The notes under the pieces: model-generated
Seen by the model: only the letters and a program-made list of their open reading frames with translations
Told to the model about the DNA's origin: nothing
Databases searched by the model: none
Translations under genes and position numbers: made by a program
NCBI GenBank assembly: GCA_021229015.1
Contig: CM037795.1
Span: 18,378,212-18,442,211 of the forward strand
Direction of reading: 5' to 3'
DNA from: Solen grandis
Lineage: Eukaryota; Mollusca; Bivalvia; Adapedonta; Solenidae
DNA: 64,000 bases
Shown: one piece after another, positions 4,646 to 45,261 of the stretch
Position numbering within the stretch: the first letter of the stretch is position 1
Layout: each line of letters starts with the position of its first letter

Positions 4646-5264
4646 TGTATTGTGCTGTATGCACATTTTTCCAAATGAAAATGCATAAAATGCAAACATA
4701 TATATAATGAAAAAATAATGAAACTAAATAAAAAAGGGCATGATGTTTGTGCCCCTTACCATTTCTTTATATATAGATCTACCTTCATCTATTATAATGC
4801 TGCTTTATCCGCAATTTCAAACCCGGCGACATTGGTTCCGAAATCAGAACCAAATGTTACTAGATGCAAAGAAATTTGCATTAAAGTAATAAAACATCAT
4901 TTTCTCGAGTGCCGATATATGCCATTTTAAATCTACAGAAATCCACAAACCACGCTGACACATTCAATTCATGACTTTAAACCACAAAACCTTTATAACA
5001 GGTATAATTCATCTATCATTTAAAGATGATAATAAAAAAACAACTTATTTGTCGGAAAATGTAGGAGCTATATACATGCTAGACCCTGAAAAGGGAAAAA
5101 GAATGACACAAATGCAAAAAAAAAAAAACAACAAAAAAAAACCGCTTGATATGTGTATAATTCGCTATTAATTATTCATAGTTTCAATGCAAACCTAGAG
5201 CGTGTTATATGCCCATATACCGTTGGAAATATATGATTGGAAAATCAGTTAGTCGCGCAAACAC

Positions 5265-5400
5265 CCTTACAATATATATACCCTTGATTGGCGCTCAGCA
5301 TATAAAGGTAGTTCAAAGACTGGTTGAACCGTGGACTGGGCGTGATAGCACTATATCTGTCTCAAGCAGACAAAGTCTCAAAAGAACTGAAGTTCTTTCG
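5265..5400 (+). repeat. SINE family B body fragment
   Basis: Shares the CTTGATTGGCGCTCAGCATA body and the following AGGTAGTT/ACTGGTTG stretch with the intact SINE at 18287-18595, but has no head. It lies immediately upstream of an inverted copy at 5408-5720, so the pair forms a large imperfect inverted repeat. Confidence 0.75.
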
Positions 5401-5407
5401 AAGGGAC

Positions 5408-5720
5408 AGTATGTTTGTTTGTTGGGTTTAACGTCCCGCCGACAGTATTCTAGTCATTTGGAGACGATTTCTACTTGAGACAGATATAGTGCTGCCACAC
5501 TGCTGTATCACGCCGTAGACATGTGATATGATACCACACCTAGTCACATTATCCTGACACCAGGCCAAACTGTCCTGCAACTAACCTTATAAGCTGAGCG
5601 CCAAGCAAGGGAGCTATAACAGTACCATTTTTACGACTTTGGTATCTCGCGGCCGGGGATCGAACCCACGACCTCCCGCTCCCGAGGCGGACGCCCTAAC
5701 CACTCGGCCATCTGGGACGT
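5408..5720 (-). repeat. tRNA-derived SINE (family B), near full length
   Basis: Minus-strand copy. The complement of the B box (GGGATCGAACCCACGACC) and of the A box (CCACTCGGCCA) lie at the right end. The tail TTTAACGTCCCGCCGACAGT lies at the left end next to a TTTG-rich tract. The tRNA-like head with the 200-bp body is the same family as 18287-18595 and 45262-45566. Confidence 0.85.
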
Positions 5721-28902: not shown

Positions 28903-30604
28903 AGCTCACATGAGCACAACGTGCTCAAGGTGAGCTTTTCTGATCGCCTTTTGTCCGGCGTCCGTCGTCCGTGCGTCCGTCCGTGCGTCCGGCGTCAACA
29001 ATTGCTTCAAACAACATCTCCTCCTAAACGGCTTGGCCAATTTGAAAAATATTTTGCAGGAATGTTCCTTGGATGAAGCTCTACTAAAGTTGTATAAATG
29101 GTTCTGGTCCATCGCATAATTAGGTCACAGGAGCTAAAAATAGATTTTAAAAATGAAAATTTAAAAAATCTTCTTCTCTGAAACCACAAGGCCTAGCCTT
29201 TTGATTTTTGGTATGTAGCATGATCTTATGACTGTCTACCAAGATTGTACAAATCATAGCCCTATGGTGATAAATGACCCCGCACCAGGGTCACTTGTTT
29301 TACATAGAGTTATATAGAAAAATCTATAAAAATCTTCTACTATGAATCCATAAGGCCTAGAGCTTAGATATTTGGTATGTAGCATCATCTTATGGGCCAC
29401 TACCAAGATTGTACAAATCATAGCCCTATGGTGATAAATGACCCCGCACCAGGGGTCACTTGTTTTACATAGAGTTATATAGGAAAATCTTAAAAAATCT
29501 TCTTCTATGAATCCATAAGGCCTAGAGCTTAGATATTTGGTATGTAGCATCATCTTATGGGCCACTACCAAGATTGTACAAATCATAGCTTATGGTGATA
29601 AATGACCCCGCACCAGGGGTCACTTGTTTTACACAGAGTTATATAGGAAAATCTTAAAAAATCTTCTTCATGAATCCATAAGGCCTAGAGCTTAGATATT
29701 TGTATGTAGCATCATCTTATGGGCCACTACCAAGATTGTACAAATCATAGCTATGGTGATAAATGACCCCGCACCAGGGGTCACTTGTTTTACACAGAGT
29801 TATATAGGAAAATCTTAAAAAATCTTCTTCTTTGAATCCATAAGGCCTAGAGCTTAGATATTTGGTATGTAGCATCATCTTATGGGCCACTACCAAGATT
29901 GTACAAATCATAGCCCTATGGTGATAAATGACCCCGCACCAGGGGTCACTTGTTTTACAAGAGTTATATAGGAAAATCTTAAAAAATCTTCTTCTGAATC
30001 ATAAGCCTAGAGCTTAGATATTTGGTATGAAGCATCATCTTATGGGCCACTACCAAGATTGTACAAATCATAGCCCTATGGTGATAAATGACCCCCCACC
30101 AGGGGTCACTTGTTTTACACAGAGTTATATAGGAAAATCTTAAAAAATCTTCTTCCATGAATGCATAAGGCCTAGAGCTTAGATATTTGGTATGAAGCAT
30201 CATCTTATGGGCCACTACCAAGATTGTACAAATCATAGCCCTGTGGTGATAAATGACCCCACACCAGGGGTCACTTGTTTTACATAGAGTTAAATAGGAA
30301 AATCTTAAAAAATCTTCTTCTATGAATCAATAAGGCCTAGAGCTAAGATTTTTGGTATGTAGTAGCATCTAATGGTTCATTACAAAGATTTTCAAAGTCT
30401 TGGCCCTACGGTGATAAATGACCCTGCGCCCAAGTCTTCTCTGAAACCATATGGCCCATTGCTTAGATATTTGGTGTGTAGTATTGTCAGGGGTAAAATG
30501 TTTTAGATTAACTTATATCAGAATCCTTGTCTGTTTAAAAACCTTGACATCAGTTGAAGCAATGGTACTCAGGTGAGCGATTCAGGGCCATCATGGCCCT
30601 CTTG
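28903..30604 (+). mobile_element. Pearl/Helentron-like element with seven ~165-bp core repeats
   Basis: The 5' end AGCTCACATGAGCAC is followed by the complement GTGCTCAAGGTGAGCTTTTC. A GTCCG/CGTCC-rich segment leads into about seven ~165-bp units starting at 29255, 29419, 29584, 29746, 29909, 30069 and 30234, each with CCCCGCACCAGGGGTCACTT. The 3' end is ACTCAGGTGAGCGA, then GGGCCATCATGGCCC and CTCTTG. The uninterrupted duplicate at 26917-27353 proves the boundaries to within the T run: 7 T in the empty site, 5 + 4 T around the element. The repeat length fits the ~160-bp cores reported for bivalve pearl elements. Confidence 0.85.
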
Positions 30605-30714: not shown

Positions 30715-31478
30715 CCTTTCAACTAAATTCACCCCACACTCTCTCGAACACATTTTATACATATTTTGATCACTTATTTTTAAATTAGAAATTTGACTAG
30801 TTATTGTCATTAGTTTGGCAGTTATAAAGTACCAATTGTCCGTGTGTCCACCATTTTCTGTTTCGTCCACCAGAGCGTGACCTAATTCATGGGTTAATGT
30901 CGAAATAAGATGCATCTCACTCTGGTGGTTTTTCAGAAACAGAAAAACTTCCGGCTCTTCTACACCGTCGTCATACGTAGTAGTATATCCATAACAGGTG
31001 GGATGTTCGGTGTCAATTAATCGGATGGTCAGAGTCATAAAATTGACCATACCCCCACCAATTATGGTCTGTAGTGCCGCAAGTATCTGTGAAAGGAAAA
31101 AAAAATCTGAAAATAACCATCTAAGAAATTAAAGAATGTTTTAGATGGCAGTCTTCATTCTGTTTACATATTTTGTGACAAATTGATATTGTAATAGAAA
31201 AGATGACTAACCTGGTGGACAAGATCCGCTGCTCTTGTAGGACAGATCGCACTTTTCTCCGAAAATACAGGGTCGCCTCCTGTCCCTTTACTGTACATTA
31301 CAGGAACAAATGTCTCTGGAACACTTTCCATCATGACACAGTTATTTGGAACGACAACTGATGTCTTCTCCCCCATCACTATAATTTTCACATCTTTATA
31401 AAACAATTTTCCTTTTAAAAACGTAACAACGTAACAAATCACATCTTCTAAAAACATAAAAATGGTAACAGGAAGCAT
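30712..31478 (-). CDS. SprT-like zinc metallopeptidase, two exons
   Basis: Exon 1 is 31478-31212 and exon 2 is 31086-30712, joined in phase 0 by CACCAG/GTTAGT and CTTTCACAG, giving 213 residues. Exon 2 carries LISTLTHELGHALVDE, an HExxH zinc-binding motif at about residues 155-159. A third candidate ligand His follows in ENGGHTDNW about 11 residues later, as in the SprT/Spartan fold, where H-E-x-x-H is followed by a GH. Spartan-type proteases degrade DNA-protein crosslinks; smaller relatives have unknown substrates. Exon 1 has no recognised domain and no signal peptide. Further 5' exons are possible. The gene lies about 1 kb from the Polinton and points away from it, so it may be host DNA or captured cargo. 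Confidence 0.62.
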
Positions 31479-32887: not shown

Positions 32888-33000
32888 CCAATCAGATTCA
32901 AGAATAAATTGGCCAATCAGAGAAGGCTTTGAAGGTGAGCATCAGCCAATCAAATTCAAGAATAAATTGACCAATCAAAGGAGACTTTGATCTATAAAAG
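32888..33000 (+). promoter_or_regulatory. Two CCAAT modules and TATA box of the PC4-like gene
   Basis: Two near-identical 32-bp modules at 32888-32919 and 32946-32977 each have CCAATCA at one end and CCAATCA again at the other, separated by ATTCAAGAATAAATTG. TCTATAAAAG follows at 32991-33000, about 53 bp before the ATG at 33053. This is the layout of a strong polymerase II promoter. Confidence 0.65.
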
Positions 33001-33466: not shown

Positions 33467-33561
33467 ATATGTTGGGATTTTTAACGTGCTATGAATGTAA
33501 CCCTAACGATTTCATGAATTGGTGAAGTAAAATTAGCAACCAATGACGATCCATTTCTAAA

Positions 33562-33582
33562 AAAAAAAAAAAAAAAAAAAAT
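33562..33582. repeat. Poly(A) tract
   Basis: About 20 A between the PC4-like gene and the next ORF. Confidence 0.85.
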
Positions 33583-33642
33583 AGACATAAGAGACTATTT
33601 AATTACGTGAAGGGTCTAATACATTGCACGTTGTTAATAGTG

Positions 33643-34056
33643 ATGGACGTTTTACCAGAGGACATCTGTAATTTGATTTACCATCACATGGTAGAAGAGC
33701 CATACATATCTTTGAAATATATAGTTGATTATGAGTTGTTTAAAGCAGCCTTATACGATTCATGTAGGAAAATGAATTTGAAAACTAAAGTGTGTATTCA
33801 GCAGTGGCTATGCAAAGAAGACACGCTTGAAACATTTAAAGAGTCTTTAAAGAAGTTATCTAGCAAGTACCATGTACGTATTAGTATTAAAGTATTCACC
33901 ATAGCAGAGTGGTATAGATACGTCATAAATAACGTAAGAGTAGTGAACCTCATACATGATTGGAAAAATGGAGGATGTATATCATTTCATTTAGGACCTG
34001 AAGATCCCTACATAGAACAACATTTCCAGTTGTCAATATTAGATGTTAACTTTTAG
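33643..34056 (+). CDS. Hypothetical Polinton protein, N-terminal F-box-like stretch
   Basis: 137 residues from the ATG at 33643. An in-frame GTG at 33607 is less likely as a start. The N-terminus MDVLPEDICNLIYHHMVEE resembles the opening of F-box-like motifs (LP.di...I...). The middle is Lys- and Trp-containing (CIQQWLCKEDTLETFKESL), and no membrane helix is seen. Function is unknown. It lies on the same strand between PC4 and the BIR segment, so it is element cargo. The F-box resemblance is weak and rests on a short match. Confidence 0.5.
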   Translation: MDVLPEDICNLIYHHMVEEPYISLKYIVDYELFKAALYDSCRKMNLKTKVCIQQWLCKEDTLETFKESLKKLSSKYHVRISIKVFTIAEWYRYVINNVRVVNLIHDWKNGGCISFHLGPEDPYIEQHFQLSILDVNF

Positions 34057-34411: not shown

Positions 34412-34437
34412 TGATTGGCTGAGGACGTCTATTTAAG
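34412..34437 (+). promoter_or_regulatory. ATTGGCT + TATTTAA module before the RING ORF
   Basis: GATTGGCTGAGG followed by TCTATTTAAG, with the ATG of the RING ORF at 34459. It repeats the inverted-CCAAT plus TATA arrangement seen at 32447 and 32888 on a smaller scale. It suggests that the RING ORF may have its own start rather than being only the tail of an IAP gene. Confidence 0.4.
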
Positions 34438-34748: not shown

Positions 34749-35826
34749 ATGTCAGACTGGAAACAGTATTTGTCTTCTTTATACTTTAACCCTAAGTCCC
34801 CAGCTAGTTTTCTGGGTCCCGAAAAGTATCAGTTGGTCAAGACAGAGGGAAAATTTAAAATCGGTAGACACCGTATTAGAAAATTGTTGCAAGATCAAGA
34901 ATCTTATTCACTGACACGAGGCGTAAGACGGAAGTTTCCGCGCTCAAGGGTGATTGTAAATGGTATGGACAGTCAATGGGATATAGACCTGATGGACATG
35001 GTTGATTTGTCAAAAGACAATGACGATCGCAAGTACGTTTTGGTGACAATAGACATTTTCTCACGTTTTGCTAGCGCTCGTCCAATAAAAAGTAAAAAAG
35101 GTGTAGATGTAACTCGTGCGCTTCAACACATATTATCAGGATCAAGGAGACCGAACACAGTTCGGAGCGACTTGGGTATGGAATTTAGATCAAAGGATGT
35201 CAATAAATATTTAACTAGTCTAAATATTCATCACTTTTATGCGTATAATACAGAGACAAAAGCCAATTACGCCGAACGATTTATCAAAACCTTGAAACAC
35301 AAGATATTCCGGTACCTGTTAAAGAAAAGGACAAAGAGGTATATCGACGTCCTAGAAGATATGGTCCATAGCTACAATGCAACAGTACATCGTAGTTTAG
35401 GCGTTGTGCCTAACAGTATTACCCTAGAGAATGAAGGCGAAAGCCGGCTGCAACAATATTTACTGAGAAATAAAAGAAATCTTAAATCGACAAAGAAGTA
35501 CAAATTCAAAATAGGCCAAACCGTTCGTCTTTCCCACATTCGAGGCATATTTGATCGCGAATATTCGCAAAAATGGACCGGTGAAATTTTCAAGGTGGAT
35601 ACACGTTTCAAAGTTAAAAGATTGGGACGGACAAGCTGTCAAAGGCACATTTAATAATCAAGAGCTCCAAGCTGTGACTGTGGACGCTACAACCGAGTAC
35701 CACATTGAAAAAATTCTAAAGAAAAGGGTGAGAAATAAACAGAAAAAAGTTTTTGTACGTTGGTTGCACTGGCCTAAACAGTACGATAGCTGGATCCCGG
35801 AAAATGACGTCATCAACTATTCATAG
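34749..35826 (+). CDS. Polinton integrase, DD35E core plus chromodomain, frame switch between them
   Basis: The core is in one frame from 34749 to about 35610: QWDIDLMDM (candidate first Asp, residue 80), VRSDLGMEF (Asp 141) and NYAERFIKTLKHK (Glu 176). This gives exactly 35 residues between the last two acids, a D,D35E retroviral-type integrase. An SH3-like stretch follows (KIGQTVRLSHIRG). The C-terminal chromodomain (EYHIEKILKK, KKVFVRWLHWPKQYDSWIP) is in another frame, open from 35551 to 35826, so a shift occurs near 35610-35620. No zinc HHCC region is evident in the short N-terminus. The enzyme would integrate element DNA, with the chromodomain steering it to chromatin. The copy is probably inactive unless the shift is a sequencing error. 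Confidence 0.93.
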
Positions 35827-35906
35827 TCACGTGACCCTCTCACTATATTAACCTGACTTTCCTCAGTTTTTCACATTTGTGCTATAGACTTCGAGTGGAC
35901 AACACC

Positions 35907-36437
35907 ATGTATATCACTAATATCGTGTTTAGCGCCAATATCGGATGCTCTATTGACTTGAAAAAACTATGCTACCGTATAACCAATGTAAGATTTGACC
36001 CAAAGACATTTCCAGGTCTGATATGGCAACACAAAACGATCGGTGGCAACTGTTTGATTTTTGCCAACGGAGTTATCAACTGCAACGGAAAAGTGACATG
36101 TCCGGCAGAAGGACGTCAGCGATTGAGACAATATGCGAGATGTTTACAGCGAATGGGGTACCCAGTACACCTCACAAAGGTGAGATGGATCACTCTTTCA
36201 GCAACATACACCTTGAGCGAACGTCTGGACTTGGAACAATTGGTAAAAGAGAGAGTTTCGATCGTTTACGAACCTGAACTCTTTCCTGCCGCCAATTTCA
36301 AAGTAAAAAATGTCAATTTCTGCTGTTTTCATAGTGGGAAAGTGGTCATTACGGGAGTGACATCGATGAAACAAATCGATGATATCGTCTACCCTACAAT
36401 GATTGAGTTGGAACTGTATACGCGTAAGAAAGACTGA
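35907..36437 (+). CDS. TATA-box-binding protein (TBP) homologue encoded by the Polinton
   Basis: 176 residues from the ATG at 35907, the size of the TBP core alone. Two direct repeats are visible. Repeat 1 has YITNIVFSANIGCSIDLKKL, RFDPKTFPGLIW, CLIFANGVINCNG and RQYARCLQRMGYP. Repeat 2 has a LEQLV stretch, YEPELFPAANF, FHSGKVVITG and VYPTMIELELY. The four Phe positions that kink TATA DNA in cellular TBP have counterparts at F35, F52, F126 and F141; spacing is 17 as in cellular TBP for the first pair and 15 for the second. It is open from end to end despite decay nearby. It lies 80 bp after the integrase and 27 bp before the minor capsid gene. Some giant DNA viruses carry TBP-like genes; I do not recall one described from Polintons. 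Confidence 0.86.
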   Translation: MYITNIVFSANIGCSIDLKKLCYRITNVRFDPKTFPGLIWQHKTIGGNCLIFANGVINCNGKVTCPAEGRQRLRQYARCLQRMGYPVHLTKVRWITLSATYTLSERLDLEQLVKERVSIVYEPELFPAANFKVKNVNFCCFHSGKVVITGVTSMKQIDDIVYPTMIELELYTRKKD

Positions 36438-36464
36438 AGAGACAAAGAAAAGAACATTAAAATT

Positions 36465-37265
36465 ATGGACAGCTTCTACCTCTATCTCAATAGTCAAGAT
36501 TCTCTCGACATACGTAAGAATAACAACCCATCTGAGTGTTGGATTCAACTACCGAAATCGTATCATTTGGATGGACAGTGGTCTTGCTCCTTAACAGAAA
36601 TCACACTAAACTGTGATTTTACACCAAAGTCAAAACGATTGTACCTGTGCTGCGATTTGATTGAAGAATCTTACGTAAGAAATTCTCTCATACCAGTGCT
36701 TAGAAACGTAGAGGTCAATTCGAGATATAAGAAGTTGCTGACTACAGAGTATAATCAACTTATTTATAAGCCAGTGACTGTGTCTCAGCTGACAACAATA
36801 CGACTGTTTTTAAGAGACGAACATTTGAATTTAGTCACATTCACGACCAACGAACTGCATTGCCTCCCTACATTTCAAGAAATCATGGGCTCGATAGAAG
36901 TATATGACCATCACCAACAAAAATGGGTTCCCTATAACCCTGACCCCGAGGAGTTGTATCAACACTTGAAGGATTTGAGGGACGGGTACGTTCAACCCGA
37001 CCACCTTGGACGGTATTTTATAGGGAGCGGTAGATTTAATAGACAAATAGCCGAAATGAACAAACAAAAAGAAACCCCTACCGTGAACTTAGTGACACCC
37101 GTAGCACAGGCCAATGCAATAGCGCAATCGGAGATTGATCGTGAGCGTAAGAATAGCACTGACAAAACGCGTAAGAATAGCGCCGGCAAAAAACGCAAGA
37201 ACACATCTCAAACTATCGCACCAAAACAGCCAAGATTGGTCTATCCCCTAGACAACGCCTTTTAA
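36465..37265 (+). CDS. Penton-like minor capsid protein
   Basis: 266 residues, lying directly before the major capsid gene (2 bp between stop and ATG), the usual place of the Polinton minor capsid (penton) gene. The N-terminal half opens MDSFYLYLNSQDSLDIRKNN, then has the LDGQWSCSLTEITL turn and KRLYLCCDLIEESYV, the pattern of the single jelly-roll penton of Polintons. The C-terminal 60 residues are basic and repetitive (KNSTDKTRKNSAGKKRKN), likely a DNA-interacting or nuclear-localising tail. No disruption is seen. Confidence 0.78.
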   Translation: MDSFYLYLNSQDSLDIRKNNNPSECWIQLPKSYHLDGQWSCSLTEITLNCDFTPKSKRLYLCCDLIEESYVRNSLIPVLRNVEVNSRYKKLLTTEYNQLIYKPVTVSQLTTIRLFLRDEHLNLVTFTTNELHCLPTFQEIMGSIEVYDHHQQKWVPYNPDPEELYQHLKDLRDGYVQPDHLGRYFIGSGRFNRQIAEMNKQKETPTVNLVTPVAQANAIAQSEIDRERKNSTDKTRKNSAGKKRKNTSQTIAPKQPRLVYPLDNAF

Positions 37266-37267
37266 AC

Positions 37268-38527
37268 ATGTATCGTCAAGATTATCATCAAGAACATGTG
37301 TCATTGTTTGTCCCGTCCCCTACTGACCCGTCTATCGTCTCGAGAGAATGGATCGACTTTCGACCCGTGAATCAAGTCGCGGATACGTCGGTGCTAGAAT
37401 TTAACATACCGGGCCAATCTGCATATTATGTCGATCTTAGAAGGAGCGTATTGAGCGTAAAAGCAAAGGTCGTTAAGGGAGATAAATCAAACCCTACAGA
37501 TACTGAAGTGTTTGCTCCAGTGAACCTTTTCCTAAGTTCGATCTTTCGCCAGGTGGACGTGACCTTTCAACAAACACCTTTGCCACATACGGGCACTAAC
37601 TACCCGTATAAAGCCTATATCGACACTATATTGAACTCTAACGAAAACGAACAGAAGGGGTCATTGACCACTCAGTTCTTTTACAAAGATAATGGTAATG
37701 TAGACACTACTGATGGCAAATCTGGAACCAATGAAGGGTTAAAAACAAGATTCAATAAGGCCATGGGCGGTGCAATCATTGATATGGAAGGACCATTACA
37801 TGTGGACATATTTCAACAACCTCGACTGCTCATGAATGGCGTATCTATAGGATTAAAACTGTGGCAAGGACACGGTTCATTTGGAATTATTAGCGATGCG
37901 CTGAACCCCGATTACAAAGTCCAAATAGTTGATGCACGTTTCAAATTATGCGTAATAAAACCTTCGAGCGCCATTTTACTTGCCAATGAGAAAATGATCC
38001 GGGATGTACCTGCCAAATATCCCTACCTTCGATCGGATATAAAAACAGTGTCTGTAGCCGCGGGGCAATATAGTTTCAATGCGGATGACATGTTTCAATG
38101 TCTCTTACCCAGTAAACTGATTGTTGGACTGGTGTCTAGTGCCGCGTACAACGGGGACTATGCCAAGAACCCTTTTCATTTTCAACATTACGACCTCAAC
38201 TCATTGGGTCTATACATTGACGGTCAAGCCATCCCCACACAGCCCCTGCAACCCAACTACGCTTCGGACCAGTATATCGATTGTTATAGTACGCTCACCC
38301 AGCACAGAAGAGACATTAATATCACCTCGGAAGAATATAAGAAAGGATTTTGCTTCTACTTATTGAATATTGATCCTTTCTACACGTTTAACAGTAAGAG
38401 ACGAGGACACCTCCGCCTAGAATTGAAGTTTACCACCGCCCTACCAGAAAGCGTCACGTTGATCATGTATGCCACTTTTCCGGAAATTCTCAACATTAAC
38501 GAAGCCAGGGCCATATTTGTGAAATGA
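37268..38527 (+). CDS. Double jelly-roll major capsid protein
   Basis: 419 uninterrupted residues. It opens MYRQDYHQEHVSLFVPSP and has WIDFRPVNQVADTSVLEFNI, YVDLRRSVLSVKAKV, IFRQVDVTFQQTPL and, near the C-terminus, RRGHLRLELKFTTALPESV. These are hallmarks of the Polinton major capsid protein, often annotated in invertebrate genomes as F54H12.2-like. The family forms hexon-type trimers with two jelly-roll folds building an icosahedral shell. Position after the penton gene and convergence with the ATPase operon agree. The intact frame suggests recent insertion or a selected function. Confidence 0.92.
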   Translation: MYRQDYHQEHVSLFVPSPTDPSIVSREWIDFRPVNQVADTSVLEFNIPGQSAYYVDLRRSVLSVKAKVVKGDKSNPTDTEVFAPVNLFLSSIFRQVDVTFQQTPLPHTGTNYPYKAYIDTILNSNENEQKGSLTTQFFYKDNGNVDTTDGKSGTNEGLKTRFNKAMGGAIIDMEGPLHVDIFQQPRLLMNGVSIGLKLWQGHGSFGIISDALNPDYKVQIVDARFKLCVIKPSSAILLANEKMIRDVPAKYPYLRSDIKTVSVAAGQYSFNADDMFQCLLPSKLIVGLVSSAAYNGDYAKNPFHFQHYDLNSLGLYIDGQAIPTQPLQPNYASDQYIDCYSTLTQHRRDINITSEEYKKGFCFYLLNIDPFYTFNSKRRGHLRLELKFTTALPESVTLIMYATFPEILNINEARAIFVK

Positions 38528-38581
38528 ATAATCGAGAAAGTGACAGCGAGATGTACACAGTGACTGTATAGTAATTGTGAC

Positions 38582-38599
38582 TTTGTAAATAAAAACAAA
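38582..38599 (+). terminator. Poly(A) module TTTGTAAATAAAAACAAA
   Basis: Exact 18-base repeat of 34731-34748, here 55 bp after the capsid stop codon, with AATAAA inside and a second AATAAA just after. It sits at the convergence point of the two gene groups. Confidence 0.65.
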
Positions 38600-38683
38600 C
38601 AATAAATGTATACTTATTTGTATTTTATTTGAAGATATATAGACATAATAAAATTGAAATAAAAAAGAAAAATGTCTCTGTTT

Positions 38684-38941
38684 TTAATACGAAATCCAGT
38701 CAATTGAACGTTTCTCCTTCTTTTTTTGAACACGTATTCCAGGGGGAGGGTGAGCTACCCTGTGTCTTTTCTTCATTTGTAATCTAGAGGGTGAAAGAGG
38801 TCTGTTTGAGGACGGCTTTGGTTCTTCGCTTACGGGCATGTGTGTCCTTTTTTCGTCACTCGTGGATTGCTCACCAAATCCTTCTATAGTTCTCTGTAGT
38901 CTCTGATATTTTTCGTAAGGAATAAGCACGAGCTTTTCCAT
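38684..38941 (-). CDS. Small Polinton late protein with LIPYEKYQRL start
   Basis: 85 residues, N-terminus MEKLVLIPYEKYQRLQRTIE, a Pro/Ser-rich middle and a basic tail (QMKKRHRVAHPPPG, KKKEKR). Polintons often carry such a short protein with a conserved vPyeky-like start next to the ATPase group; its role is unproven. The start codon lies two bases after the stop of the next upstream gene, so both are probably co-transcribed. Confidence 0.62.
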   Translation of the reverse strand: MEKLVLIPYEKYQRLQRTIEGFGEQSTSDEKRTHMPVSEEPKPSSNRPLSPSRLQMKKRHRVAHPPPGIRVQKKKEKRSIDWISY

Positions 38942-38943
38942 GA

Positions 38944-39267
38944 CTACTGAAGCACAGAGTCTAAATAGACTGACGCTATTTTTACCAACGTAAACACCAG
39001 TTTCTGTTTGTCTCGTATCGCTATCTTCTTCTCTTCAAATCCGATCTTTTTATCCACCAACGAGTATACAAAACGGCGTTGACGCTTGAGACTCTTCTTC
39101 TCTGACTGAGTCAATGGTATTTTAAACTTGAGTATATTGTTGGCAATCTGACTTAACGCTCTCAATTGTTGTTTGGTAATAGTATGCAATAAAGCTTTAC
39201 TTTGTGCTGACGTAGTCTGTGTTAATAGATGAAGAAAATGACGTTGCTGTTTTATCAATTCTACCAT
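38944..39267 (-). CDS. Small helical Polinton protein
   Basis: 107 residues, Lys/Arg-rich and predicted helical: LLTQTTSAQSKALLHTITKQ, NNILKFKIPLT, KKSLKRQRRFVYSLVDKKIG. Proteins with this pattern recur in Polintons of many animals without known function; they may bind DNA or the capsid interior. It lies between the small late protein (2 bp) and the ATPase (8 bp), in a compact minus-strand operon-like block. Confidence 0.65.
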   Translation of the reverse strand: MVELIKQQRHFLHLLTQTTSAQSKALLHTITKQQLRALSQIANNILKFKIPLTQSEKKSLKRQRRFVYSLVDKKIGFEEKKIAIRDKQKLVFTLVKIASVYLDSVLQ

Positions 39268-39275
39268 AGTTATTC

Positions 39276-39923
39276 TTACGTTAGTCGATAGATAATAGGA
39301 TATTCTCCCGGAAAGATATCCGTTCTTAGTCGGTATTTGTCTTTGGCATGAGGACTAGTGTCGACCAATAAGTAACCGTATGTCAGGGCATCTTCATACG
39401 CTTTCAAAAATCCTTTGGATTTTCCGGGGTAGAGTTGTCGACCTAGAATGCCTACTTGCGATATATCCCTTACATTTTTCATCAGCACCATATACCAAGT
39501 ATTAAGGGCTATGGTTCTTGCGTGTTTCCCGCCCGGGTATAGATTCTGAGTTATTAGTATTACTGATATCTTTCTGTGATGGCATCCCTGGGTGAATAAC
39601 AATTCCATGTCCTTGTTTCGCATGACTTGATGCATTAAATCGTCAATGATAATCAGTTTATGACGTCGGTCATGGGTAAACTCGTTCAGTTCTTCTGTTG
39701 ATGGCAGCCCTTCTTTGCTGTAAAAGTTGGGAATGGTCCGTTCCATATGATCAAACACATCTTGATGTATCCCATAGCAGTACAGTATTTGAGAAGGCGG
39801 GTCATTAGTATACATATCCGGCAAATGTTTTAAAAACTTGTACACCCATTGCGTTTTTCCGCTTCCAGTTTGACCACTGATACAAATACTTGAGCAGGGT
39901 TCAAAAGGTACTAGAGCTTTCAT
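39276..39923 (-). CDS. FtsK/HerA-type DNA packaging ATPase
   Basis: 215 residues. Walker A GQTGSGKTQ is at residues 17-25 and Walker B KLIIIDDLM at about 89-97. A polar sensor-like segment SVILITQNLYPGG follows at about 120-132. This is the A32-like packaging ATPase of Polintons, adenovirus-like and giant viruses, which drives genome DNA into the preformed shell. Length matches the family. The frame is intact. The ATG overlaps the stop of the membrane protein gene by one base. Confidence 0.95.
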   Translation of the reverse strand: MKALVPFEPCSSICISGQTGSGKTQWVYKFLKHLPDMYTNDPPSQILYCYGIHQDVFDHMERTIPNFYSKEGLPSTEELNEFTHDRRHKLIIIDDLMHQVMRNKDMELLFTQGCHHRKISVILITQNLYPGGKHARTIALNTWYMVLMKNVRDISQVGILGRQLYPGKSKGFLKAYEDALTYGYLLVDTSPHAKDKYRLRTDIFPGEYPIIYRLT

Positions 39924-40198
39924 TATTTCTTAAGTTTAGGACTGGGGAGGGCGTATCCTATACAGCTACTTAACAAGCTGATCCACAGTTCGCTACTTCC
40001 GTTTTGTAGGGACAAATTAACGTTGGAAACGATGATTATAATGTAGACAATAATCATCTGACAGAAGTAGACAATTTCGGCTTGAGGTACTCGGGTACCT
40101 AACAAATGCCACTTTTCCCCGTTAGATCGAATCTCTTCGTCATGGGGTAAATAAATAAACGTTTCCCTTTCGGGTGTAATATCTTCGTTTGTATTCAT
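39923..40198 (-). CDS. Small Polinton membrane protein
   Basis: 91 residues. A polar N-terminus is followed by VPQAEIVYFCQMIIVYIIII (helix about 42-60) and ELWISLLSSCIGYALPSP (helix about 70-84). The two-helix pattern with this LWISLLSSCIGY end is common in Polintons. It could be a virion membrane or assembly factor; function is unknown. It is the first gene of the compact late block, and the CCAATGACAAAAAA array lies just upstream. Confidence 0.68.
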   Translation of the reverse strand: MNTNEDITPERETFIYLPHDEEIRSNGEKWHLLGTRVPQAEIVYFCQMIIVYIIIIVSNVNLSLQNGSSELWISLLSSCIGYALPSPKLKK

Positions 40199-40370
40199 AT
40201 TCTTACGTATATCTGGGTAGTATAGATAAAAAAAGAGCTTTTATTCTTACAATTTTATTCACATAGATGAGACATATTTAAATTTAACTAAAATCAAGTC
40301 ATGACGTAAAGCAAACATACAAAAAAATTAATCTATATGAAATTACACTTAAACCTTACAAAAAATCAAT

Positions 40371-40622
40371 CAACCAATGACAAAAAATGGATCAGACAAT
40401 GACAAAAAATCAATCAGACAATGACAAAAAACTGACCAATGACAAAAAAACTAATCATCTATTGACAAAAAATTGATTTTCCAATGACAAATAATTGACC
40501 ATCTAGTGACAAAAAATGAATAACCAATGACAAAAAATGGATCAGAAACAAAAAAAACAGACTTTGACAAAAAATTGATCAATGACAAAAAAAAAACTAA
40601 TCATCTATTGACAAATATACAA
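40371..40622 (-). promoter_or_regulatory. Degenerate array of CCAATGACAAAAAA units
   Basis: About fifteen units of the form (C)CAATGACAAAAAA or CTATTGACAAAAAA, spaced 14-20 bp with ATCA/GATC spacers, fill the gap between the polymerase gene and the late block. The units hold CCAAT cores and lie 5' of the minus-strand late genes, so enhancer or promoter use is possible. A simple AT-rich minisatellite is the alternative. Confidence 0.6.
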
Positions 40623-40634
40623 TACATCAATATT

Positions 40635-42212
40635 TTATATACAATGTTCAAAATCCGTATGGTACAGTATCAAAATTGTCATCTTCTTCGTTTGGTATAA
40701 CCATTTGATATTTTTGTTTTCTTCTCTGTTGTACAATTTTCGTTTTCGTTTATCTCTACATATTTTTCTAGGATTAGTTATCGTTATACTTGGATTACTT
40801 TTGGGATCTGTCACTATCTGTTTCACACTGTTAAAGTTTATCAGTTGACTATTTGTGTAATTCAATGTGAAACCTCTCACCTTACATGTTTCATTGTTTT
40901 TATTGGTTTTGTATGCGTAGTTTTTAGGGCCACCAGACACAAACTCTACAATGTGCTCTCCTCCCCCTAACTCGTCCGTCAATTCACCCAAGTAGTCCCC
41001 AAGAGGTGGATCATATTCCCGGGTCTACTTACGTAAATGACACTGTCTGTATCGTAATAGAGTACGCGTCTGTCGATTTGTTCTAGCACACTGTACAGTT
41101 TGAGTCTGGCCCAACATGTCGTAAAGGTGGCCAAATAGATATTGGTCTTATTGTCTTCGGGCTGGCAGTCCTGTTTGTATATCCATTCAATCTGTATTGT
41201 TTCATTAGATAATATGTGAAAGTCAAGAGGTGTTTTCATTGGATCGGAAAATAATTGAAAGAACAAATTGGGTTTTTCGCAATTTTCTTCCGATCCAATG
41301 AAACTCCCTCTTTCTCAAAGTACTGTTTGATATAAGTCATAACATCCTCTTTCGTTTTAATCCAGTCAGGGGGGCCACTCGCTTCCTGTTTAAACTTTAA
41401 AAACGTGTCTATGTATTTGGCAAATAGCCCCCCTTCTCTGGTTTTCGGGTCATATTGAGTCGATTCCTCCCAGTGGTATACTTCGTATATTTTCTGAATT
41501 GTGTAACCTAACCTAACCGCCGTCTGAATCTCCGGTGTACACCAAGTACCGGTCAACACCCTTTCGTCATCGGAACACGTACATGAGTCACGATTCTCGG
41601 TATCCGCACAGGTTCTACATAAAGGAAATTTCAGTTTACCATTGGATCTATACGGGAGGACTGGATGATACAGTCCTCGGGGTGGTAAGATCTTGACTTT
41701 GGCAATACCGAAATAATCATTTATGTCTCCGAAATCTTTGGTTATCATTTCAGGATGACCAATGGGATACCGACAATACTTGTTGACCCACGGATACAAG
41801 CTCGTGAAATCCACGTACTTGATTTCTTCGTGTTCTTTTGTTTGATAGTAGAGTTGACTGGCATTGGTGCGACCGCCGAAGAAACTCTCTCTTGGGTCTA
41901 GTCTGTCTGTCAAGTCCAATTGTCCAATGAACGCTTGAAGATCAGGGTTTTGTTTTTTCTCTTTTAAAAATTCATGGTCCCAAATACAAACGTACTTCAT
42001 TCCTAAACTTTCTAGGTGAGTTTTCTTTTTATAGTCAAGGCATACAACTCGCTCAGAGATTGGTGTGTGAGTGGATGACGCGTCTCTTCACGATCCTCTG
42101 GGAAACAAATAGGGCAACCATGAAACACAAATCCGTGATATTCATAGACCGTATTTGTTTCTTCATGTGTATGATACAGTCTGAAACTGTTGCGAGTCCC
42201 ATGTGGACTCAA
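40635..42212 (-). pseudogene. Protein-primed family B DNA polymerase, fragmented, motif B missing
   Basis: Four overlapping open pieces in different frames: 42212-42012 (VYEYHGFVFHGCPICF, the usual N-terminal part of the polymerase region), 42000-41236, 41266-40979 and 40991-40635. Motif A is KYVDFTSLYPWVN near 41810, and motif C is YYDTDSV near 41050. The motif B helix with its invariant Lys and Asn-Ser is absent between them; there the frame breaks at a 24-bp inverted repeat (41234-41257 and 41280-41303). The C-terminal FVSGGPKNYAYK motif is typical of protein-primed enzymes. The N-terminal exonuclease and terminal-protein portion is cut off by the R2-like insertion. It is certainly non-functional. 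Confidence 0.95.
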
Positions 42213-44663
42213 GCATGGTCGTTTCAGATTGCTGATCGACGTTCTCTTCAGTATGGTGTCCCTCCGTCATCGATGTTTCGCCCCTGAACCATAGACATCT
42301 GATGGAGGGTGGGGCCCACCGCAACACGGTGTGAACGTCGATAGCTTACTTCTTCCAGCTTGTCTCCTCTCGTCGTAGCCACAGCCAGCTAGACGAACGC
42401 TCTGCAGCTTGGCTCAGTTTCTGGATAAGCCGCCGTCTGTCTCTGCCAGTAGTCCCAATCGCTGTCATCAGTCGACACATAGACTGAGCGAAAAACCCTC
42501 TGACGCCTACTTCTATCGGGAACAGCCATGTACGCCAACTTAGTTGCTTACAGCCGTTCAGAAGCTCTGTGTACTTGGCGTTCTTTCTTTCATAGGCCTC
42601 CTCGCATCTGGTCTCCCATGGTACTGTCAACTCAATCACGATGAGTCGCTTTCCTGTCTCAGACCACAGTACTATGTCGGGTCTTAGGTTTGTGTGCACT
42701 ATGTCTGGGAACACCAGCTTCTTATCTAGGTCGACCCTCATGTTCCACTCACTTGTGCCATCCAGGATTGATGATTTCTGTGGGAACTTAGCGCTTGCAG
42801 TTTCACCCTGCTTCACAAAATTGATGTGCTGTCTCTGGGAGTTACTCCTGCGTTCCTTTTTTCTCTCTTGTTCAAGCCAGTCAGCCACCTCTCTGAGGAC
42901 GTAGTCATGACGCCATCTGTATCTTCCTTGAGATAGTGCTGTGGAACAGGAAGAATCAAATTGCTCTAGGGTGCCTGGACGTTCACAGAGGTGGCATTTT
43001 GGATCATCTGTGAGTCCCATCGGCAAAGATTAGCTGGGATGGCAGAAGGTCATGAACTGACCTGAGTAGGAAGGAAAGTCTTAATGGTTCATATTTCCAT
43101 ATGTCCTCCCAGGTCAGCTTCCTGTCCATGGAGATCACTCTCCGCCTGGCCGACCGTCTCTGTGACTGCCCATTTCCTGCCCGTACGTGTAACAATACCA
43201 GCATCTCGAATCTGCTCATCTGGGGAGTCTCTTAGAGTAAGTACCAGTCTCGTTTTGGCTGTCTTGAATTCCTCGACCAGTGATGAAAGCGGGAGTTGAA
43301 GCTTATTGCTCTTTCCATATAGCCCTACACTGGAAAAGCTTGGTGGAATTCCTAGCCACTTTCTTAGATGACGACTGGTGATCCTCTCCAAGGCTTCTAT
43401 TGTTGAGCTTGGGATGTCGTACAGCATCATGGGCCAGATCAGCCTAGGTAGTAAGGCATGCTGGTACATCCAGGCTTTGAACTTTCCAGGTAGGTTGCTT
43501 AGGTCTATCTTCTTCAGTCCCTCTTCTACCTGGGTCTCTAGTTTTTTGACATCTCTGTCTTCAAGGCTTGCATCAAACCATTTCCCTAGGCATTTGATTG
43601 GACTGTTGGTAATTGATGGGATCTCCTCATTCTGTACACGAAGAGAGAATCTGTCTGTTGGTTTGCCCTTCCTGATGATGAGAGATCTGGACTTTGCGGC
43701 CTTGAATTTCATTCTAGCCCATGACGCGACGTCTGTCAGAGCTGTTAGCATCCATCTTGCCTGTACATGTGTAGCTGTTGTTAGAGTGAGGTCGTCCATG
43801 AAACCTCTACCAGATGGAAGATATATCCCTGATTCCGTCTTTGGTCCGCGTGTCTCTCTGAGGGCTGCATTGATCAATAGGTTCATGCCCATGATGAAAA
43901 GTACCACAGAAACTGTACATCCTGTGACAATTCCTTTCTCCAACTTCTGCCAGTCTGTCAGCTGGTCACCAACAGAGAACCTGAGTCTTATCCCGTCAAG
44001 GTAGCTGGTGAGGATTTTCTGTACATGCTGCGGTATGTGGTAGTGCTGGAGAGCTGTGTAGATCAGCTGGTGAGGAATGGAGCCATATGCGTTGGCTAGA
44101 TCGAGCCAAACCACTGTAAGGCCTCTCGTATTAGTTGATTTATGGCACTTGTGTGTTCTACACAGCCGGAGAATCCTGGAACTCCTCCCTTTTGGACCGA
44201 GGTATTGATGTACTTGTTGGCTGTGAGGTAGGTCGTACACCTTATGGCTAGTTCAGCAAAGAATATCTTCCCTTCTACATTTAGCATAGAGATGGTCCGG
44301 AACTGGTTGATAGTTGTAGAGTTCCTTTCCTTGGGAGTGAATATTCCCTCTGCTTCCTTCCAGGCCTCTGGTATTTCCCCTTTCCTCCAAACCACCTTAA
44401 AGATCCTCCATAACCGTTTAAGTATGAGAGGGCACATCTTGTAAACTTTATACGGGATGGCATTGGGTCCAGGAGCAGAACCATATCTAGCTTTCTTGAC
44501 AATATCCTTTATGTCACTCAGAGTTGGTTCTGATGTCGGGAACTCAACTTCTGGAGGAGGTGCTGGTTCAATCCTTTCACAGTCCCCTAGTGCGTCGTTT
44601 CTTATGGCGTCGGAGTGTGTCTCGTGAAGGTGTCTCTGGACCTCTTCAACTGGTGATTCTAAA
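42213..44663 (-). mobile_element. R2-superfamily non-LTR retrotransposon with restriction-like endonuclease, frameshifted
   Basis: On minus, from the gap leftwards: ARYGSAPGPNAIPYKVYK and the IPEAW region (RT palm start); NQFRTISMLNVEGKIFF; QKGGVPGFSGCVEHT; VVWLDLANAYGSIPHQL (motif A); EKGIVTGCTVSV (motif B); and GFMDDLTL (motif C). A CxxC knuckle follows (CHLCERPGTLEQ), in which the expected His reads Gln. The endonuclease is RPDIVLW...VIELTVPWE, a PD-(D/E)xK pattern. Coding shifts through four frame segments (to about 44100, 43090, 43010 and 42346), so it is dead. The 3' UTR extends to about 42210 inside the Polinton polymerase. The 5' part is lost or hidden in the N gap. Confidence 0.88.
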
Positions 44664-44763
44664 NNNNNNNNNNNNNNNNNNNNNNNNNNNNNNNNNNNNN
44701 NNNNNNNNNNNNNNNNNNNNNNNNNNNNNNNNNNNNNNNNNNNNNNNNNNNNNNNNNNNNNNN
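44664..44763. other. Assembly gap (100 N)
   Basis: Exactly 100 N inside the R2-like element. The sequence beyond it (44764 on) shows no R2 or Polinton similarity I recognise. The join may hide kilobases, including polymerase N-terminus, element ends or host exons. Confidence 0.98.
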
Positions 44764-45261
44764 TGTGATCCTTTAACATTAAAAAATCAAGAATAATGCC
44801 CCCCCTTTTTTTTACTCTTTTATAAAATTTCTCAATTTGCATTGCACACTCAAGATCAATGTTCATCACAAGATTATGTCTGATATAGGATATTATTTGT
44901 TGTTTTAGGACTAATAAAATATCAACGAATCTCTTTTGTCTGTTTGTCATAATGTCGCTTTGAAAAGTGTTTGACGCTATTTCCAAAAAGCACTGGTTCG
45001 CAGGTGAGTTAAATAGATAATAGGACCAATTTGGTCCTGCAACAGTATGGGCAATAATTTTGTGCAAGTAAATTGCTGTCTTTGTGTTTCAAGGATCGTT
45101 TAGATAATTTTCACCAAGGCCTAATTGAGAATTTTATCAGGTGTAAAATACGGCATCTGATATCCGTGCATATTACTAGGATTGGACGTGGAACGAATTA
45201 AAATTGTTTTTGCTAACCAAGTAATTTTAATGCAGCTTTAATTTAATTTCAAAATGAAATT
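44764..45261. other. Spacer without recognised gene
   Basis: On minus there is a readable stretch at 45067-44764 (QKRFVDILLVLKQQIISYI and ECAMQIEKFYKRVKK) that resembles coding sequence but matches no family I know. It could be a relic of the Polinton polymerase N-terminus or chance. Confidence 0.4.

Follow-up and report, generated by a model that had tools for sequence, protein, structure and literature searches.

A lineage of Polintons, known in this analysis from bivalves, encodes its own TATA-box-binding protein (TBP), as shown by the protein family, the predicted fold and the linkage of the gene to other genes of the element. The copy described below lies in the 64-kb stretch of Solen grandis DNA that was analysed (the window), in which it is the only TBP. 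The initial annotation had read this locus as a Polinton with its own TBP. The observation has been confirmed and the interpretation supported, and the best inference from the sequence is that the element would bring its own promoter recognition factor.

The TBP gene and the surrounding Polinton

The open reading frame translates to 176 aa, ends at a stop codon and contains all the TBP-like motifs initially listed for it (FPGLIW, LIFANG, YEPELFP, SGKVVITG and YARCLQRMGYP). Residues F35, F52, F126 and F141, put forward as counterparts of the DNA-kinking phenylalanines, do align with F197, F214, F288 and F305 of human TBP, which we take to be the kinking residues in the 339-aa numbering of that protein. 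The window protein matches the Pfam TBP family (PF00352) over two stretches with E=7.5e-28 and 96.7 bits (cut-off 22.9), and TBPs in the PDB from 2e-20, or 8e-44 when a family profile is used. The structure predicted for it is the TBP saddle, and TBP-core structural matches cover residues 1–174. The comparison with human TBP reaches TM 0.89 and the best viral match TM 0.79 at 23% identity; viral models thus resemble the window protein less than cellular TBP does in the structure search. An N-terminal Pol II-binding domain of the herpesvirus type is absent, the 176 residues forming the TBP core alone.

The element carries the hallmarks of a Polinton/Maverick: an rve integrase (PF00665), a DNA polymerase B (PF03175) and an A32-type ATPase (PF04665), all above Pfam cut-offs, together with a double-jelly-roll major capsid protein (MCP; Table 1). 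The MCP model (pLDDT 87.5) has capsids of iridovirus, PBCV-1, Sputnik and mavirus as its top Foldseek matches, with E about 1e-13 and TM 0.55–0.67. TBP sits between the rve integrase piece and the capsid cluster, as had been described, and the breaks reported for the integrase and polymerase were seen again: the chromodomain is found in a frame other than that of the rve piece, and the polymerase is in pieces adjoining a reverse-transcriptase element. The element with the TBP gene is a degraded Polinton. No terminal inverted repeats of at least 40 bp with a 14-base exact seed were found in 22000–52000, and one shared 13-mer only was seen; the ends of the broken element may have been lost or have diverged.

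Table 1. Genes and candidate promoter motifs of the Solen grandis Polinton (positions within the window).
Feature	Position	Strand	Evidence
TATAAAA box, 60 bp upstream of PC4 ATG	32993..32999	+	
Tandem PC4/p15 coactivator-domain protein, 137 aa	33053..33466	+	Pfam PF02229 6.9e-22, two stretches
ORF, first ATG of 33547-34056 open frame	33643..34056	+	No Pfam family above cut-off
TATTTAAG box (TATTTAA), 29 bp upstream of RING ORF ATG	34430..34437	+	
RING-finger ORF, 81 aa	34459..34704	+	PF13920 1.6e-8
rve integrase piece, 301 aa	34749..35654	+	PF00665 3.4e-11
Chromodomain piece of broken integrase gene, other frame	35515..35826	+	PF00385 1e-7
TATATTAA box, 63 bp upstream of TBP ATG	35844..35851	+	
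TBP, Polinton-encoded, 176 aa, two repeats	35907..36437	+	Translation, Pfam, PDB, predicted structure
CGTAAGAA motif, 42 bp upstream of 36465 ORF	36423..36430	+	
ORF directly upstream of MCP, 266 aa	36465..37265	+	Open frame
Two CGTAAGAA motifs, 122 and 98 bp upstream of MCP, inside 24-bp tandem repeat	37146..37177	+	
Double-jelly-roll MCP, 419 aa	37268..38527	+	Model and Foldseek
ORF, 107 aa	38944..39267	-	No family above Pfam cut-off
CGTAAGAA motif, 13 bp upstream of 107-aa ORF	39273..39280	-	
Packaging-type ATPase, Pox_A32 family	39276..39923	-	PF04665 1e-5, 25.6 bits, cut-off 22.8
ORF	39923..40198	-	No Pfam family
CGTAAGAA motif, 9 bp upstream of ORF starting at 40198	40200..40207	-	
DNA polymerase B piece	41236..42087	-	PF03175 9.1e-20 over 41236-42000

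A companion gene, absent from the initial annotation, was found in the same element. It encodes the tandem-PC4 protein, for which the PDB search returned a human PC4 structure (3.9e-5), and its 137 residues compare with mostly 160 or more in the top homologues. The 266-aa ORF begins 28 bases downstream of TBP and has neither a Pfam family nor a convincing PDB match; a minor-capsid role is a guess from its position. No family match to an adenovirus-type protease was obtained among the ORFs scanned in the window, and a PHROGs scan gave no useful match. Other features of the region include the reverse-transcriptase element beside the polymerase pieces (42346–45067, minus strand, RVT_1 3.5e-13), within which lies a 100-N gap at 44664–44763, and an ORF with a HELGHALV motif (30715–31128, minus strand), whose SprT-like match is weak and falls under the Pfam cut-off. 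A 165-bp unit is tandemly arrayed in about 7.8 copies at 29155–30424, and a 22-bp minisatellite (ACAAAAAATCAATCAACCAATG) is located to the right of the ATPase gene at 40358–40538.

The TBP frame was initially singled out as intact in an element with broken genes. It is indeed intact, but as a sign of selection this was rejected: the 36465 ORF and the MCP, ATPase and PC4 genes are equally unbroken open frames, so that intactness is weak evidence. The real evidence for the gene is, in our reading, its conservation across the family.

A TBP family linked to capsid and PC4 genes

The gene is not confined to the window locus. A protein search returned 132 homologues, and in the best 120 of these, on which the family counts are based, at least 110 further homologues (P0002–P0111) group with the window TBP at 38–77% identity, the next match among those listed standing at 34%. 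An IGGN motif is typical of this clade. Identity to human TBP is 26–37% with a median of 32% (85 near-full-length rows). The named high-identity animal relatives of the PC4, MCP and TBP proteins are bivalves. Among the matches listed, the TBP group includes two members with Mercenaria mercenaria gene names and three labelled as Sedimenticola or Thiodiazotropha MAGs, the latter presumably representing host contamination. Four records of the group (P0026, P0049, P0070 and P0074) either are annotated as TBPL1 in Mercenaria or lie in bacterial symbiont MAGs.

A tree was built from 41 rows, of which 30 were sampled from the group (the other 81 being outside the tree). A 100/100 branch with a length of 0.96 changes per column sets these 30 apart from the remaining 11. 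Four rows of the tree, three labelled 'cell' and one 'virus-like', are metagenome proteins whose labels were given by eye. AU tests reject none of the three groupings examined, namely the Polinton clade with animals (p 0.136), with nematodes (0.074) or with a giant-virus-like pair (0.32); neither a giant-virus nor an animal origin is claimed, as neither is rejected.

Scans of viral contigs (P0001, profile A1, MCP and profiles A2, A3 and A4, where A2 is an MCP profile, A3 is built from seven TBP rows outside the clade and A4 is a divergent profile) and of genome contigs (P0001 and profile A1) found no clade or MCP locus. The A3 scan of viral contigs matched only one locus (IMGVR_UViG_3300018428_005369, 4944–5633), on a contig that looks giant-virus-like from its ORFs. 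In the tree its TBP pairs with P0119, a metagenome protein, and the two fall towards the cellular TBPs, apart from the Polinton clade.

Because the contig scans found no such locus, linkage was assessed by contigs of exactly equal size in bases across the TBP, MCP and PC4 protein searches, using the best 120 of 132, 279 and 158 homologues, respectively, and length-shifted controls. At least 7 of 20 TBP-group contigs of 3–25 kb match the exact size of a contig with a Polinton-type MCP homologue; the shifted-length controls have a mean of 0.11 and a maximum of 2. The seven matches are a lower bound, since the best 120 of 279 MCP homologues were used. Matches were also obtained for two contigs of megabase scale, but these are hardly informative on closeness. 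A 1729-base TBP–MCP match was dropped as two whole genes cannot both fit, and a 1188-base PC4–TBP match was dropped as contigs below 3 kb match at chance level (0.85 expected). On a Sedimenticola-labelled contig, presumably host sequence within a symbiont MAG, the locus tags of TBP (ABW072_02025) and MCP (ABW072_02035) fit one intervening gene, as in the window; on a Thiodiazotropha taylori contig the tags (N0E59_22775 and N0E59_22760) are separated by three steps, one more than in the former.

For the PC4 protein 158 homologues were found, and those named among the best 120 are from bivalves, including Ruditapes, Mercenaria, Mactra and Mytilus. Among the matches listed, a contig size of 9321 bases is common to PC4, TBP and MCP, and three more sizes (13, 201 and 238 kb) are common to PC4 and MCP. 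The distances of TBP and MCP are correlated over eight pairs, one from the window and seven from short contigs (r 0.56, a value reached in 112 of 20000 permutations); inclusion of the two megabase-scale pairs abolishes the correlation (r 0.11, 5680 of 20000). When the 34 listed MCP contigs of 3–25 kb are divided by identity to the window MCP, a listed TBP is present on 7 of the 24 with an MCP at 52% or above and on none of the 10 below, with the caveat that MCP contigs near 3–4 kb may be too short to show TBP as well. The named oyster and pearl-oyster MCPs among the matches listed fall in the lower identity band (45–49%). TBP may be a trait of a single bivalve Polinton lineage, or evade detection elsewhere.

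Contact residues and candidate promoters

Residue counts are given out of those of the 111 family rows that have any residue at the column, in human TBP numbering; the residue roles (kinking, minor-groove, TFIIB and TFIIA contacts) and the list of minor-groove positions are those we take to apply. The four kinking phenylalanines are kept in 96/99, 100/106, 107/109 and 94/105 rows, and 78 of the 92 clade rows that cover all four columns have the full set. The TFIIB contacts are likewise kept (E284 in 102/109, E286 in 105/109 and L287 in 94/109), and the minor-groove residues N167, V169, L212, V311 and T313 are mostly retained. Other minor-groove positions are replaced: V220 by Asn in 83/106 rows, T222 by Asn in 84/105, N257 by Thr and V259 by Ser in 104/110 each, and L303 by Cys in 68/105 or Ser in 26/105. 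In 101 of 104 rows none of the positions V220, T222, N257 and V259 has the human residue. At the TFIIA contact E191, 83 of 96 rows have Arg, which reverses the charge. In the window protein, five of the ten minor-groove contacts are replaced (V220N, T222N, N257T, V259S and L303C) and five kept, and a profile alignment to Arabidopsis TBP pairs the same residue columns. We infer from this family pattern a protein that would still bend DNA and dock TFIIB while reading DNA differently, as opposed to a decaying copy.

A TATWWA sequence is present within 120 bp upstream of all five left-arm genes (PC4, the 33643 ORF, RING, integrase and TBP), 29–61 bp before the gene starts, and upstream of none of the five morphogenesis genes within either 120 or 200 bp. 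Given that 27–33% of 120-bp stretches contain TATWWA, five of five corresponds to p about 0.001–0.004, while none of five is unremarkable (p 0.14–0.21). The morphogenesis block has a motif of its own: CGTAAGAA occurs seven times in 36400–40300, on the coding strand in every case, and is absent from the rest of the window. Among 8-mers of that region it is the most frequent (shuffled sequences average 0.145 copies, with at most 2 in 1000 shuffles), and in a control for any 8-mer six copies were reached in 1 of 200 shuffles. Copies lie 9–122 bp before four of the five morphogenesis genes, the ATPase gene having none. The motif resembles a splice donor, is partly in coding sequence and owes two of its seven copies to one tandem repeat; it is a candidate late promoter or splice donor. 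No consistent TATT box shared by the capsid genes was seen by eye in this element. The split between TATA and CGTAAGAA gene blocks is suggestive, though post hoc and drawn from one element.

Alternative readings and relation to known TBPs

The explanation we find best overall, and somewhat probable, is that the Polinton TBP bends element promoters and recruits host TFIIB and RNA polymerase II with an altered preference. As judged from the kept residues, the four-Phe saddle most likely binds and sharply bends element promoter DNA, and the conserved YEPELF stirrup would recruit host TFIIB and RNA polymerase II. Given the altered minor-groove and TFIIA-facing residues, element promoters would probably be preferred over host TATA boxes, with looser dependence on TFIIA. 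TBP and the neighbouring tandem-PC4 protein could then form a small element-encoded initiation kit. Speculatively, host TBP would fire the left-arm genes (PC4, RING, integrase and TBP) via their TATA-like boxes, and the element TBP would then activate the TATA-less morphogenesis genes, similar to the beta- and gamma-herpesvirus TBP mimics that serve late genes. That the rewritten TBP and the tandem PC4 make up an orthogonal kit, switching host Pol II from TATA early genes to motif-marked late promoters, is a tentative proposal that we would sooner doubt than adopt.

An ordinary TBP replica, which would merely raise the TBP dose on standard TATA boxes, including those of the element, with unchanged specificity, appears rather unlikely to us. 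The kinking phenylalanines, N167, V169, L212, V311, T313 and the TFIIB motif, all of them mostly retained, agree with it, as do the TATA-like boxes at five element genes, but neither the four minor-groove positions that are non-human in nearly all rows nor the arginine at E191 would be expected if host specificity were retained. The combination of kept TFIIB contacts and a reversed TFIIA-facing charge could also describe an anti-host protein, holding TFIIB or host promoters in non-productive complexes and so damping host transcription or antiviral genes, and the nearby RING-finger ORF could be another host-directed gene. The retained DNA-bending phenylalanines and the linkage to PC4 and capsid genes, however, are no less compatible with a positive role on the promoters of the element, and we hold an anti-host function to be improbable.

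The location between integrase and capsid genes, and the fact that the TBP fold bends DNA, would suit an architectural protein acting in replication, integration or packaging instead of transcription. Such a protein has no need of TFIIB-contact residues, yet these are kept in 94–105 of 109 rows, and the PC4 coactivator gene in the same elements would be left unexplained; we therefore rate an architectural role as very unlikely. Against a host gene, or a recent processed copy of host TBP that landed in a Polinton, the evidence is already strong. This possibility draws on the single TBP copy in the window and on the AU test, which does not reject an ancient origin beside the animal TBPs (p 0.136). 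It is opposed by the at least 110 further homologues with their low identity to human TBP, by the 100/100 branch uniting the 30 sampled rows and by the contigs shared with capsid homologues, and we give it hardly any weight. The concern that the gene might be a recent host-derived pseudogene is thus answered by the size, divergence and isolation of the family.

In comparison to cellular TBP (PF00352; human, yeast and Arabidopsis), to which the distance is as given above for the human protein, the window protein is the core only, is borne by a mobile element and has the IGGN motif and the V220N, T222N, N257T, V259S and E191R changes. With half of its minor-groove contacts replaced, it departs from the contact set of a canonical TATA-reading TBP. 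TBPL1 has lost the kinking phenylalanines and TATA binding. NCBI names one Mercenaria family member (P0026) 'TATA-box-binding protein-like 1', but the four phenylalanines, which most of the Polinton clade keeps, argue against this label.

The herpesvirus late TBP mimics (BcRF1, ORF24, UL87 and U58) are likewise virus-encoded proteins with a TBP fold. Portions of two papers (PMC4893493, PMC7498053) describe these mimics as proposed for structural genes with non-TATA core promoters, with BcRF1, ORF24 and UL87 serving late genes that have a TATT box. In vitro, BcRF1 on its own does not discriminate between TATA and TATT in binding, according to a section of the former (PMC4893493), and the abstract of the latter (PMC7498053) states that the mimics need five further viral proteins and that ORF24 recruits Pol II via its N-terminal domain. 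In contrast, the Polinton protein is a bare TBP core that keeps its TFIIB contacts.

Giant viruses and mirusviruses are far larger than Polintons, and their TBPs are among the named viral structural matches to the window protein. Both are described as TBP carriers in portions of PMC10132985 and PMC11464507. Excerpts of two further papers report that an algal virus is proposed to redirect host Pol II with its TBP and TFIIBs (PMC12085832) and that mirusvirus-like elements of a green alga sporadically carry TBP (PMC10675990). The Polinton TBP appears conceptually most like the viral TBPs and structurally closest to cellular TBP.

We know of no Polinton gene list that includes TBP or a tandem PC4. 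The largely open-access literature searched yielded no report of either in a Polinton, Maverick or adintovirus. In the available text of the Mercenaria genome paper, a table gives Maverick as 1.69 (7091 entries) and the word TATA does not occur.

The viral TBPs met in this work belong to large-genome viruses, namely herpesviruses, giant viruses and mirusviruses. If our reading is correct, a general transcription factor is placed in a small virus-like transposon, and a natural TBP with altered DNA reading is on offer. The Mercenaria 'TBPL1' gene label would be explained as a probable Polinton gene. To our knowledge, the expression programme of Polintons has hardly been studied, and they would gain a promoter-recognition factor that is directly testable. 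Should the orthogonal-kit proposal hold, it would be the equivalent, in a small virus, of the late-promoter system of herpesviruses. The occurrence of TBP with an adjacent PC4 transcription gene suggests that the element may govern the transcription of its own genes.
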